Assembly (NCBI GenBank): GCA_021781345.1
Contig: JAJXWZ010000001.1
Span: forward strand, 1 to 64,000
Reading direction: 5' to 3'
Source of the DNA: Pseudomonadota bacterium
GTDB taxonomy: Bacteria; Pseudomonadota; Gammaproteobacteria; Xanthomonadales; Rhodanobacteraceae
Length of the DNA stretch: 64,000 nt
Of the stretch, positions 53,533-58,928 are shown in pieces (positions within the stretch are counted from its first letter, which is position 1; each line of letters begins with the position of its first letter). The notes beneath the pieces were generated by a model. It saw nothing but the letters and a program-made list of their open reading frames with translations. It was not told where the DNA came from and searched no databases. Made by a program: the position numbers and the translations under genes.

Positions 53533-54087
53533 ATGCGCGGTAAACCGGATCGGCAACGCTTCGAAACGCTCCTGCGCGAGCACCGGCGAATCGTGCTGAA
53601 GGTCGCTGGCGCGTATGCGCGCAGCGCCCACGATCGCGACGACCTGGTCCAGGACATCGCGATGCAGCTTTGGCGATCGTTCGGGGCGTTCGATGCCGGC
53701 CGCGCGAAGTTCACCACCTGGATGTATCGAGTGGCATTGAACGTGGCGATATCCTGGGTGCGCAGTGCGAAGCGATCCGGGCTGGAACGTTTCGAGCAGC
53801 TCGACAACGTCCATCTCGAAACGGTTGCCGGCGCCGGCGGCGCGCAGCACGAAGTCCTGGAACGCAATGAACGCCTTGCGGCGTTGTACGACTTCATCGC
53901 ACGCCTCGACCCCCTCAATCGTGCGCTGGTGCTGCTGTATCTGGACGATCGCCCCTACGCCGAAATCGCCGACGTGATCGGCATCAGCGAGACCAACGTC
54001 GCGACCAAGCTCAACCGCATCAAGCAGAAATTGCGCGGGCAGATGGGCGTCACGCAAACCGAAGGAGCCAACAATGGAACTCGATGA
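53533..54087 (+). CDS. ECF sigma factor
   Basis: DRDDLVQDIAMQLWRSFGAFDAGRAKFTTWMYRVALNVAISWVR; LDDRPYAEIADVIGISETNVATKLNRIKQKLR. Confidence 0.93.
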   Translation: MRGKPDRQRFETLLREHRRIVLKVAGAYARSAHDRDDLVQDIAMQLWRSFGAFDAGRAKFTTWMYRVALNVAISWVRSAKRSGLERFEQLDNVHLETVAGAGGAQHEVLERNERLAALYDFIARLDPLNRALVLLYLDDRPYAEIADVIGISETNVATKLNRIKQKLRGQMGVTQTEGANNGTR

Positions 54088-54718
54088 GATGAAACGGACG
54101 TGGGCGGCGATGGAATTGCGACTGGATGGCATGGAATCGCTGTTGCGCAGCGAATCCAGGGAGCGGCGCACGGGCAGGGCACGCGCTGCGCTGCGCCCGC
54201 TGTTCTGGGGACAGTCGCTGCAATTGGCGGTCGGCAATCTGCTCGTGGCTTGCGGAGCGGTTCTCTGGGCCACCCATCTGCATCAATCCGGCGTGCTGGC
54301 TTGCGGCCTGGTGGCAAACGCCTACGGATTGCTGCTGACGATCTTTTCGGCCCGCAATCTTTACCTGATCCATCACATCGACTACGCCGCGCCGGTCCTC
54401 GATATCCAGCGCCGCATGGCAGAGTTGTGCGCGTTCCGCGTGCGCGTCGAAACGCCGATCAACGCCGTGGCCGGGTGTTTCATCTGGATTCCGGTGCTGT
54501 GGGCGAATCTGGCGCTCTACGGACTCGACCTGTGGTCGCCGGGCCTCATCCATTGGGCGCTGGCCAGCGGCGCAGTCGGTTTGATCGCGCTCGCCGCGGT
54601 GGTTTGGGTGATGCGACGGCTCGGCTACGGGCACAAGGTCGACGAGGCCAGTGCCGGTCGCAGCATAGTGCGTGCGCAGGCCGCGCTCGACGAGGTCGCG
54701 CGCTTCGAACGGGGGTAA
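54074..54718 (+). CDS. Multi-TM membrane protein, candidate regulator of the adjacent ECF sigma factor
   Basis: MELDEMKRTWAAMELRLDGMES... plus about 4 TMs; overlaps the 3' end of the sigma gene by 14 nt. Confidence 0.75.
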   Translation: MELDEMKRTWAAMELRLDGMESLLRSESRERRTGRARAALRPLFWGQSLQLAVGNLLVACGAVLWATHLHQSGVLACGLVANAYGLLLTIFSARNLYLIHHIDYAAPVLDIQRRMAELCAFRVRVETPINAVAGCFIWIPVLWANLALYGLDLWSPGLIHWALASGAVGLIALAAVVWVMRRLGYGHKVDEASAGRSIVRAQAALDEVARFERG

Positions 54719-54776: not shown

Positions 54777-56435
54777 TTACTGGCCGTTGCCCTGGTTGTC
54801 GGTCGATTGGATGAATTTTACGACGTTGTCGTGCTCCTGCTTCAGCGACGGAATGTTCGCGTAGATCATGTGGCCCGACGGATAGAACGCGTAGGTGATG
54901 TTCTTTTCCAGTCGCTCCGGGATCGGCAGGTGCTGCAGTTCGTAGATCGCCGTGTAGAACGGCGTGGCCAGGTCGTAGAAACCGCCGTTCATCATCACCT
55001 TGAGGTCCGGGTTGTACTTCATCGCGGCGGCGAGGTCGCCCATCACGTTGAGCGAGCCTTCGCGTGCTCGGCGCGAGCCCGGTGCCCGGTGCTTCATGTC
55101 CCAGTGGAAGTCGCCGGCGCCGTACACGTCCGGGCGATAGTTCATGTCCTGGCCGAACTTGAGGTCCTTGCGCACGTAGTCGTTGAAGGCGGAGATGTAG
55201 GCCGAGCTGATCGCCGCCGACTGCGGGTCGTACTCGGAGCCTTTGCTCATGGGGTCCATGCTCGGCCCGGAGAATCGCGAATCGAGACGGCCGGTGGTGG
55301 TGTCGGTGTCGTTCTGCAGTCGGTGTTCGAACATGCCGCCGCTGACGCGCAGGTCCGCCTTCAGCCAGTAGCTCGCCGGCAGCCCGGTGTAATCCTGCAG
55401 CTTCTCGGCCACTTCGTTCCGCTTGGCGGCGTCGAGCGTGGAGCCGGCCTGCAGCGCCTGCTCGTAGTCGGTCTTGGCGAAATGGATGACCTGCTCCAGC
55501 AACGGCCCCAGTTTGCCGTTGTCGAACTTGGGCAGGCGCTTGTGGTACCAGGCCGTCGCCGCGTAGGTCGGCAACGCGAGCACGTAGGGCATGTCCACAC
55601 CGGGGTCGGCGTGCGGGCCGTCGACACTGAGGTTGAAGTTCAGGATCTGCGATTGCAGGATCACGCCGTTGAGGTCGATGTTGTCCTGCAGTTCGAGTAT
55701 CCCGGCCAGCACCGCCGAACGGGTGGTGCCATAGCTTTCGCCGAACAGGTACTTGGGCGAATTCCAGCGGTTGTAGCGGGTGAGGAACTGGTTGATGAAC
55801 TGCGCGAAGGCCTGGCCGTCGCCGTCCACGCCCCAGATTTGCTTGGCCAGTTCCTTTCGGTCCTTGGCCTGTTCTGCCTCGTTCTTGCCCTGTTGCAGAA
55901 GACGGCCGAAGCCGGTGCCGGGCATGTCGATGAACACCAGGTCGCTGGCGTCGAGCAGGCTGTAGTCGTTGTTGACGATCTGGTACGGCGCGGCTGGCGT
56001 ATGGGTGTCGTCGTTGGTGACCACACGCTTCGGACCCCATGCGCCCATGTGCAGCCACATCGTCGAGGAACCAGGGCCGCCGTTGTAGATGAAAGTGATC
56101 GGACGTTTGGAGGCATCCGCGCCCTGCTTGAAATAGGCGAAGTAGCCCATCGCGACTTCCGGTGTGGATTCCTTTACCCCGTTTCCGTGGATCACCAGCG
56201 TGCCGGCGACGGCCTTGTAGGCGATCGACTTGCCCTCGACCGTGACGGTGCCTTCGGTCGTGGATGACATCGGCTGCATCAGGCGCTGGACCAGGGTTTC
56301 GGTCTGCCCGTTGTCATGGCTCGCACCGGAATCGGCGGAAGCCGGGTTCCCGGAACTGGCCGGTGGGACGGCGAAGGCGGGAACGCTGCAAAGGAGCAAC
56401 GACGCGACTGCAACGGCAAGACGATTGGATTTCAT
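54777..56435 (-). CDS. S10-family serine carboxypeptidase, secreted
   Basis: signal peptide; YNGGPGSSTMWLHMGAWGP; catalytic LFGESYGTTRS. Confidence 0.93.
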   Translation of the reverse strand: MKSNRLAVAVASLLLCSVPAFAVPPASSGNPASADSGASHDNGQTETLVQRLMQPMSSTTEGTVTVEGKSIAYKAVAGTLVIHGNGVKESTPEVAMGYFAYFKQGADASKRPITFIYNGGPGSSTMWLHMGAWGPKRVVTNDDTHTPAAPYQIVNNDYSLLDASDLVFIDMPGTGFGRLLQQGKNEAEQAKDRKELAKQIWGVDGDGQAFAQFINQFLTRYNRWNSPKYLFGESYGTTRSAVLAGILELQDNIDLNGVILQSQILNFNLSVDGPHADPGVDMPYVLALPTYAATAWYHKRLPKFDNGKLGPLLEQVIHFAKTDYEQALQAGSTLDAAKRNEVAEKLQDYTGLPASYWLKADLRVSGGMFEHRLQNDTDTTTGRLDSRFSGPSMDPMSKGSEYDPQSAAISSAYISAFNDYVRKDLKFGQDMNYRPDVYGAGDFHWDMKHRAPGSRRAREGSLNVMGDLAAAMKYNPDLKVMMNGGFYDLATPFYTAIYELQHLPIPERLEKNITYAFYPSGHMIYANIPSLKQEHDNVVKFIQSTDNQGNGQ

Positions 56436-56575
56436 GGGCATGTCCGGCTGGTCTGGATGGATGGACGGACGCGCAATGCACATCCGGAGCACCCGAGTAT
56501 GCGCGTCCACGGCGGCGACTTCATACGCCACAAGTCATGCTTCGACCCGCAGGCGGTTGCCCGGACGGGCTGCCG

Positions 56576-58774
56576 TCAATGGCCGGGGACGGCAGGCGGC
56601 GCGGGGTGCGCGGTGTCGATCACGCGCACCACGCGGAATCCCACGTTGGTGTAGCCGACGTCGGAGTCGGCCGTGCCGCGGCGGCCGAGTGGGGTCTGGT
56701 GGTGTCCGTCGCGCCAGGACAGTCCGCGGAACATCCGGGATCCCCGGCTGCCGCCGGCGACCCATTCGCTGACGTTGCCGTACATGTCGTAGGCCCCCAC
56801 GCCGCTGGGCGCATAGTGGCCGACCGGCGCGGTTTGCGCCGCGCCGTCGTTGCATGGCCAGCGATCGTCGTCCATCGCGCTGTGGCGGCTGGCGTCGTCC
56901 ACGTTGCCGAGCTGGCAGGGACCGGTGTTCGGGACGCCCTGGGCCGCGCGCAGCCACTCGTCGGCGCTTGGCAGGCGGTAGGTTTCGTGGGTGGCCTGCG
57001 ACAACCACGCCGCGTAGGCGACGGCGTCGTTCCAGCTCACACAGACGACCGGGTGGTTGTCTGCTTGCTTGAACCCCGGCGATTGCCAAGTGAGGTGCAT
57101 CAGACGCGAGAAGGGATTGTAGGCTTCGAGGCATTTCGACGCGGGACGGTGAGTCGCCTGCACGAATGCGGCGTAGCCGGCACGCGTGACCTCGACGCGC
57201 TCGATGGCAAACGCCGGCGCAGTGGCGGTGGCGGGCACGAACACCATCACCGGACCCCCGCGATCCTGGAGCAGGCTGCCGGCGACGGGTCTGGCCGCCA
57301 TGCGCTCGGCACTGGCGAAGTCGAACCCCTGCGGATAGACCGCGGGGAGTGCCGCCGCCAGCGGTTCGAGTTGCGCCAGCCGCGTGCTGTCGTGGTTGCG
57401 TGCAGCCGCCATGACTGCGGTGCCGACCGCGCGGGCGAGTCCGGCGCGCTGCTCGATCCATTCGCGGTTCGCCACCAGGCTGGCGTGCGAGGCGAGCAGA
57501 TCGCACCGCTTCAGCAGGATGCCGGCCTGTGCCACCTCGTCCTGGCGCCATGCCCCGTCGAGCCGGCCGCGTAGCGTGCCCAGCATGGCGTCGATGCCGG
57601 CAAGCGCGGCCGGATTGCCCGGGTCGAGCATGAGCACGGCGAGATACTGTTCGGCGGCGTTGTCGCCGGGCGGCGAAAACAGATGGTCGCCGGCACGCAA
57701 CGCGGCGGCCTGCGCGATCATCGTCTTGACCTGGTCGGCTACCGCCGAGACGCTGGCGGTACTCGCTGGTGCCGCGGCGGTTGCGGATGCGGCAAGCCGT
57801 GTTGCCGGAGCGACCGCCGTCGCTGTCGTGGCAGCGGCCTGCGGGCTGGTCCGGCGGTGCCTGTCCAGGGTCGCCCATCCCGCCAATGCCGCCGCGGCCA
57901 CCAGCAATGTCGCGGCGGCGGCCATCGCGAGTTTCGAGACGCGCCATCGCCCGGCGGTCCTGGCTGCGGTTCCCTGCCTGCGTTGTCCGTCGATCGCGGA
58001 CAGCGCATCGGCCATCTCCGCCGCGCTCTGGAAGCGCTGTTCGGGCGCCTTGGCCAATGCCCGGTCGATCCACGGCTGCCACGCGGCCATCATGGGCGGC
58101 AAACGCGGGACCGGCTGTTCGACATGCGCGATGGCGGTGGCCACCGGGTCTTCGCCCGCGAAGGGCAGTGATCCCGTCAGCAGTTGGTATGCCAGCACGC
58201 CGACGCTGTACAGATCCGAGCGCTGGCCGGGCGCTTTGCCGCGGGCCTGCTCCGGACTCAGGTATCCGGCGGCGCCGGGGTGCGGATATCCCAGTTCGGC
58301 CGCGCAACGGGCGATGCCGAGGTCGGCAAGCCGTACCTGCCCGCGCTCTTCAAACAACACGTTGGAAGGTTTGATGCCGCCGTGCACGATGCCGCGTGCG
58401 TGGGCGTGGCCCAGCGCGTCCAGGACCTCGCGCAGCAGCGCGGCGATCCGCAGCGGCTTGGCCCGCAAATTGTGGGTGGAGAGCTCGGCGCTCAACAGGA
58501 ACGGCATCGAATGGAACAGCCGCCCGTCCGCGGCGCGCCCGATCTGGTGGATATCGAGGATGTGCGGATGCGAGAGCCTGGCATGGGTCCGCAGCAATTG
58601 CTCGAAGCGGGCCGTGTCGTGGATGTCCGTCGTGGCGAATACCTTTACCGCGACTTGGCGCTCGAGCGCACGCTGCATCGCGAGGTACACCGTGGCGACG
58701 CCGCTGTTGCCGATCGCACGTACCAGTCGGTAGCCCGGCACTTGATCGATGTCGGCGCTATCCGAAGCGTTCAT
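56576..58774 (-). CDS. Ser/Thr kinase-like domain - TM - formylglycine-generating-enzyme-like domain fusion; predicted pseudokinase
   Basis: kinase domain YRLVRAIGNSGVATVYLAMQRALERQVAVKVF...GIVHGGIKPSNVLFEERGQVRLADLGIARC...GYLSPEQARG; TM LAMAAAATLLVAAAALAGW; FGE-like YRLPSADEWLRAAQ...YDMYGNVSEWVAGG...NVGFRVVR. Confidence 0.9.
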   Translation of the reverse strand: MNASDSADIDQVPGYRLVRAIGNSGVATVYLAMQRALERQVAVKVFATTDIHDTARFEQLLRTHARLSHPHILDIHQIGRAADGRLFHSMPFLLSAELSTHNLRAKPLRIAALLREVLDALGHAHARGIVHGGIKPSNVLFEERGQVRLADLGIARCAAELGYPHPGAAGYLSPEQARGKAPGQRSDLYSVGVLAYQLLTGSLPFAGEDPVATAIAHVEQPVPRLPPMMAAWQPWIDRALAKAPEQRFQSAAEMADALSAIDGQRRQGTAARTAGRWRVSKLAMAAAATLLVAAAALAGWATLDRHRRTSPQAAATTATAVAPATRLAASATAAAPASTASVSAVADQVKTMIAQAAALRAGDHLFSPPGDNAAEQYLAVLMLDPGNPAALAGIDAMLGTLRGRLDGAWRQDEVAQAGILLKRCDLLASHASLVANREWIEQRAGLARAVGTAVMAAARNHDSTRLAQLEPLAAALPAVYPQGFDFASAERMAARPVAGSLLQDRGGPVMVFVPATATAPAFAIERVEVTRAGYAAFVQATHRPASKCLEAYNPFSRLMHLTWQSPGFKQADNHPVVCVSWNDAVAYAAWLSQATHETYRLPSADEWLRAAQGVPNTGPCQLGNVDDASRHSAMDDDRWPCNDGAAQTAPVGHYAPSGVGAYDMYGNVSEWVAGGSRGSRMFRGLSWRDGHHQTPLGRRGTADSDVGYTNVGFRVVRVIDTAHPAPPAVPGH

Positions 58775-58928
58775 GGCCGCAGGATTCGTGCGACGCCATC
58801 CACGAGGTGCCGGCAGCACGACCCCATCGGCTGGCGGGTGCATGGCGGTCCGGCATGCATCGGGCGCACCGGAATCGCCACGGGCCTGGGCACGGCATCG
58901 TCAGGCTGTCGCGCTGGATCGAGAGCAG

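Follow-up and report, generated by a model that had tools for sequence, protein, structure and literature searches.

A conserved transmembrane pseudokinase with an FGE-like C-terminal half in a genus-level group of Rhodanobacteraceae

The window analyzed in this study, i.e., the first 64,000 nt of contig JAJXWZ010000001.1 (GenBank assembly GCA_021781345.1, Rhodanobacteraceae), encodes a protein in which a Hanks-type kinase domain lacking its catalytic aspartate is joined, across one predicted transmembrane helix, to an FGE-like domain. This loss is shared by a genus-level clade, and the protein is probably a conserved single-pass inner-membrane pseudokinase receptor, serving as a non-enzymatic sensor or scaffold. 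In the proposed mechanism, the periplasmic FGE-like (C-type-lectin-fold) domain, carried on a helical stalk, would bind a ligand or a partner. The cytoplasmic kinase-fold domain would fold without transferring phosphate, may bind ATP-Mg through Lys44, Asn138, and Asp151, and would pass the signal on either conformationally or as a scaffold for a partner in the cytoplasm.

The gene is a minus-strand open reading frame free of internal stops, whose translation from the window gives a protein of 732 aa (Table 1). An alternative in-frame ATG at position 58843 is possible; the alignment of orthologs gives no support for it. Two Pfam domains were identified, i.e., Pkinase (PF00069) at residues 15–249 (E-value 8.9e-30, 104.4 bits against a cut-off of 31.7) and FGE-sulfatase (PF03781) at residues 515–717 (E-value 1.5e-36). 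The AlphaFold model of the kinase domain is bilobal, with pLDDT mostly between 80 and 92, and the fold matches retrieved with Foldseek were PknB, Stk1, and PknA. The first-pass annotation of this DNA had described the protein as membrane-spanning, which agrees with the single predicted helix separating the kinase half from the FGE-like half. The Arg/Lys-rich N side of this helix predicts an N-in/C-out orientation, which would place the kinase half in the cytoplasm and the FGE-like half in the periplasm.

Table 1. Features of the pseudokinase/FGE-like gene and its product, with positions in the window.
Feature	Position (nt)	Strand	Basis or remarks
Pseudokinase/FGE-like transmembrane protein gene	56576..58774	-	732 aa + stop, ATG at 58774
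Predicted cytoplasmic Hanks-type pseudokinase domain, residues 13-262	57989..58738	-	PF00069, AlphaFold, Foldseek
Beta-3 Lys44 in VAVK (residues 41-44)	58643..58645	-	alignment; retained in 17/17 of the pseudokinase clade
Alpha-C Glu replaced by Leu60	58595..58597	-	Leu throughout the a copies (11/11), R/L/Q among the b copies; HRD orthologs keep Glu
Degenerate catalytic loop HGGIKPSN (HRD to HGG), residues 131-138	58361..58384	-	translation, ortholog alignment
DLG (DFG) motif, residues 151-153	58316..58324	-	alignment; Asp151 retained in 17/17
Activation segment, shortened by 4 residues relative to the HRD orthologs	58259..58306	-	xxGS stretch before Y-x-SPEQ missing
Single predicted transmembrane helix, about residues 282-304	57863..57931	-	sequence prediction and model
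Helical spacer, predicted extracytoplasmic, TPR-like by appearance, residues 341-495	57290..57754	-	AlphaFold model
FGE-like (SUMF/C-type-lectin-type fold) domain, residues 496-720; conserved C548, C578, C620, C641	56615..57289	-	Pfam, model, fold match, alignment
Expected FGE copper-binding Cys pair (S+3, S+8), here Asp689 and Thr694	56693..56710	-	motif spacing

The loop VHGGIKPSN occupies residues 130–138, where Hanks kinases carry HRDxKPxN. The annotation had read both the Arg and the catalytic Asp as replaced by Gly, and this was confirmed by translation and by alignment with the best PDB relatives, StkP and PknA, in which H-G-G falls on H-R-D. The motifs it listed as remaining were also found, with VAVK and DLG at the residues given in Table 1 and SPEQ at residues 173–176. 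Two further losses had escaped it, namely that of the alpha-C Glu and the deletion of four residues in the activation segment. StkP, like the HRD orthologs, has the alpha-C Glu at the position of Leu60, and this residue is absent from all 17 proteins of the pseudokinase clade, i.e., the 11 closest orthologs (termed a copies) and six paralogs (b copies). The catalytic Asp is replaced by Gly133 in each of the 11 a copies. On the other hand, Lys44, Lys135, Asn138, Asp151, Gly153, and Asp187 are kept in 17/17, and the APE Glu and Arg247 are present in every a copy and missing from some b copies; Leu152, giving DLG in place of DFG, is unique to the window copy. In total, 16 kinase positions are fixed differently in the a copies and the HRD orthologs, many of them on the catalytic machinery (60, 61, 132, 133, 158, 162, and 165).

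Bacterial pseudokinases are defined as having lost one or more of the beta-3 Lys, HRD Asp, and DFG Asp (PMC12599244), and here the HRD Asp is missing from all 11 a copies. Judged against an active Hanks kinase, the fold, the beta-3 Lys, the DFG Asp, and the loop Asn are present, and the alpha-C Glu and the HRD Asp are not.

The kinase-FGE family was found by genome search in 14 of the 16 genomes of the same genus-level Rhodanobacteraceae group. Comparison with related kinase-FGE fusions, suggested in the annotation, did not return HRD in all close orthologs, the outcome that would have spoken for a local mutation or error: HGG was present in 11/11, all from this one clade. The codon for the Gly that replaces the Asp is GGC or GGG in these orthologs, and the residue was therefore retained through synonymous change. 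The second copy, present in six genomes, reads HGG (3), HGD (2), or HAD (1), and adjoins the a copy in four of them, two genomes having it on a different contig. Three species of the genus (G010, G012, and G015) encode the HRD version. A scan of 234 genomes of the family with a degenerate DNA pattern (HGG[IV]KPxN, with V, I, or M allowed at the third position) gave matches in 10 genomes, all of this genus and all at this gene, and the HGG loop was not found by it in the other genera; the G009 ortholog, which reads HGGIKSAN, lies outside the pattern. Two extra matches among 399 genomes of the order (G464 and G057) fell among LacI/MFS and integrase ORFs and were rejected, as these are not kinase genes. 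Kinase-FGE fusions retrieved from named genomes outside the genus carry HRD, or HSD/HLD in two cases, so that the Asp is always present.

The HRD and HGG versions share the gene order amidohydrolase, CnoX, small membrane protein, kinase, S10 peptidase, and DUF502, as seen for the HRD orthologs of G010 and G012 (that of G015 lies on a 5-kb contig). In the maximum-likelihood tree, the HRD species branch first and G012 is sister to all pseudokinases (100/98); a and b copies together form a clade on one branch of length 0.43 (100/100), within which the b copies are monophyletic (100/100) and the a clade is weakly supported (68/14). As the HRD lineages lie outside and the a and b copies share one branch, the most economical explanation is a single loss of catalysis, prior to the duplication. 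The pseudokinase would thus have originated once in the genus, its ancestor being a kinase-FGE protein of this locus with an intact catalytic site, and would later have been duplicated in tandem; some species lack it. The HGD and HAD loops of three b copies are most simply explained as a secondary change, the alpha-C Glu being still missing there. The HGD tandem paralogs of G002 and G014 (L038:9344-11773 and L039:10178-12796) lack most of the activation segment, including APE, and are thereby degraded further than the a copies.

In G004 and G006 the kinase gene is missing from an otherwise intact locus, the gap lying between CnoX (in G006 also the small membrane protein) and the S10 peptidase (L186 and L187), and the gene is therefore dispensable in these two species; their placement is weakly supported in the species tree built from neighbour genes. 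The gene of the S10 serine-carboxypeptidase-like protein, with a signal peptide and a likely start near 56435, lies directly downstream in the window (54777-56531, minus strand); it occurs in one to three tandem copies at the locus across the genus and stays where the kinase gene is absent. Further on (53533-54718, plus strand), an ECF-type sigma factor gene overlaps the membrane-protein gene that comes after it; both are conserved at the locus in several members of the genus and may form a sigma/anti-sigma pair.

As the full-length prediction was of low quality in the FGE half, this domain was modelled alone, with 73 aligned sequences, which gave a mean pLDDT of 92.9. Its best PDB folds were PvdO, SUMF2, and FGE, PvdO being the top match in both structure and sequence. 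Compared with FGE of the SUMF1 type, the fold and the domain are there and the copper-binding Cys pair is not. The Pfam FGE-sulfatase family includes many members without this pair, among them PvdO, SUMF2, and PorK/GldK. The annotation had quoted the C-terminus as MFRGLSWRDGHHQTPLGRRGTADSDVGYTNVGFRVV, which is correct, and had noted the missing pair, in agreement with the Asp and Thr found at the expected positions (Table 1). Cys occurs in neither column in any of the 73 relatives aligned, HRD fusions included, the columns being placed by their spacing from the RGGS motif rather than by direct alignment to FGE. Its view that both domains are catalytically dead thus stands for the kinase half, a pseudokinase by its sequence; a recent inactivation of the FGE half in the window protein is ruled out, since the pair, missing from all of the relatives including those with an intact HRD, was not lost in this protein. 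Conserved instead are Cys548 and Cys578 (73/73) and Cys620 and Cys641 (71/73), which suggest two disulphides and a periplasmic location; together with the PvdO/SUMF2/FGE fold, they suggest a putative periplasmic binding domain. A hypervariable C-type-lectin domain targeted by a DGR was also considered and ruled out, the C-terminus (FRGLSWRDG...GFRVV) being nearly invariant across species. The window genome encodes a second FGE-domain protein (L001:16-2106), which has no kinase domain and carries an N-terminal hydrophobic segment and a helical, repeat-like region.

Several other explanations of the degenerate kinase half were weighed. An artefact of sequencing or assembly at this site, or a mutation private to one strain, to which nothing more than the MAG origin of the sequence points, has a negligible probability and is ruled out by the presence of HGG at the same gene in 10 other genomes, with synonymous codon variation; two of these 11 separate genomes (G003 and G014) are single-contig. 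It is also quite improbable that the kinase half is a decaying relic and the FGE-like half alone is in use. Such decay fits the b paralogs in part: their omega values (codon model, IQ-TREE) are 0.208 for the kinase and 0.125 for the FGE domain, the APE Glu is missing in three of six, and most of the activation segment is lost in two. In addition, the gene is absent in two species, and the a copies resemble the HRD proteins more in the FGE half (71%) than in the kinase half (57%). For the a copies, including that of the window, this reading is nevertheless disfavoured, as the constraint on their kinase half matches that on the FGE half (mean identity 78% and 79%; omega 0.076 and 0.079), with no frameshifts or stops in any of them. 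With 0.083 for the HRD kinase domain (three sequences only), and with all omegas approximate because of high divergence, the a-copy pseudokinase evolves under strong purifying selection, with a constraint similar to that on an active kinase, and the b copies are looser. Given this selection and the invariance of Lys44, Asn138, and Asp151, the kinase half is a maintained pseudokinase, which may still bind a nucleotide.

The same retained residues leave room for some ATP-dependent role, and to this extent the annotation's reading of a sensor or scaffold rather than an enzyme, which we also favour, has to be qualified. SidJ is a precedent for a kinase-fold enzyme with altered chemistry. A repurposing of the fold for a different transfer reaction that uses ATP (SelO-like AMPylation, or other acyl or nucleotidyl transfer) would be in line with the invariance, in 17/17, of the set that positions ATP and Mg. 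The AMPylase SelO also lacks the HRD Asp and retains the Lys, the loop Asn, and the DFG Asp (PMC8097203, PMC12599244), a combination that can mean a new reaction (PMC8097203); its E. coli loop HGVMNTDN, with the Lys and D(Y/F)G kept (PMC12599244), resembles HGGIKPSN. No SelO homolog was detected in the genus (profile PF02696, 0/16 genomes including that of the window, with control genomes positive). We nevertheless consider such an enzyme unlikely, since the alpha-C Glu, the partner of Lys44, is gone in 17/17, and the protein-family scans of the window protein gave no SelO match, its kinase domain resembling PknB/StkP-type kinases instead. Bolder still, and rather improbable, is the idea of a receptor-pseudokinase family whose HGG loop and kept Lys/Asn/Asp would perform SelO-like or other non-phosphorylation ATP chemistry under the control of the FGE-like periplasmic sensor, in some hosts without any other Hanks kinase.

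Allosteric activation of a partner kinase is known for STRAD and HER3. A role of this kind, or weak phosphorylation by a non-canonical route, would suit the conserved fold and ATP-site residues, the further PF00069 kinases encoded by other members of the genus, and the PP2C phosphatase genes present in 16/16 genomes. Its likelihood is low, as the catalytic base was lost together with the alpha-C Glu and four residues of the activation segment. Moreover, the PF00069 search found no Hanks kinase domain besides the HGG protein in the window genome (G000) and in G001, and none besides the HGG and HAD proteins in G011, although these are MAG assemblies of 90–96% completeness and a kinase may have been missed in each; a partner there would have been missed or be of another type. 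A non-enzymatic output is therefore likelier than aid to an active kinase. All three genomes encode a PP2C phosphatase, yet no catalytically complete Hanks kinase was found in them. Against the receptor or scaffold reading itself stand the kept ATP- and metal-binding residues, which fit an altered-chemistry enzyme too, the Asp regained by some b paralogs (HGD, HAD), and the absence of the gene at an intact locus in two species.

Among known systems, Hanks kinases of the PknB/StkP/PknA type share with the window protein the kinase sequence and fold, the N-terminal cytoplasmic kinase, the single transmembrane helix, and the extracytoplasmic C-terminus; they differ in possessing the HRD Arg and Asp, the alpha-C Glu, and the complete activation segment, and their ectodomain is PASTA instead of FGE-like. 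The kinase-FGE fusions of Rhodanobacteraceae/Lysobacterales (e.g., Dokdonella, Pseudolysobacter, and the three HRD species of the genus) are direct orthologs with the same domain order, which keep the HRD, the alpha-C Glu, and the full-length activation segment. By analogy, the nearest published working counterpart is EssB/YukC of type VII secretion, a membrane-spanning scaffold whose cytoplasmic pseudokinase domain works without catalysis (PMC12599244). The likeness lies in the kinase fold, as EssB is degraded in all three motifs and the window protein keeps the Lys and the DFG Asp. The families ActPs1-3, GLW, CP1, DYD, and DLHK are likewise bacterial STK-derived pseudokinases, some of them membrane-bound, but their motif pattern differs and none is described as a fusion with an FGE/sulfatase-modifying-factor domain in the review of bacterial pseudokinase families, which makes no mention of FGE, SUMF, or sulfatase domains (PMC12599244). 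PvdO, SUMF2 (the human FGE paralog), and PorK/GldK have the FGE fold too, but are free-standing, with no kinase fusion. No description of an FGE-fused pseudokinase was found in the open-access literature.

Bacterial pseudokinases have been little studied. Within one genus, a single locus occurs here in three states, i.e., an intact-HRD kinase (3 species), a pseudokinase maintained by selection (11), and no gene (2), and is thus a natural experiment on the role left to a receptor kinase once catalysis is gone. As the pseudokinase (with its paralog in one case) is apparently the sole Hanks domain in three of the genomes, its output could be tested there without interfering kinases.
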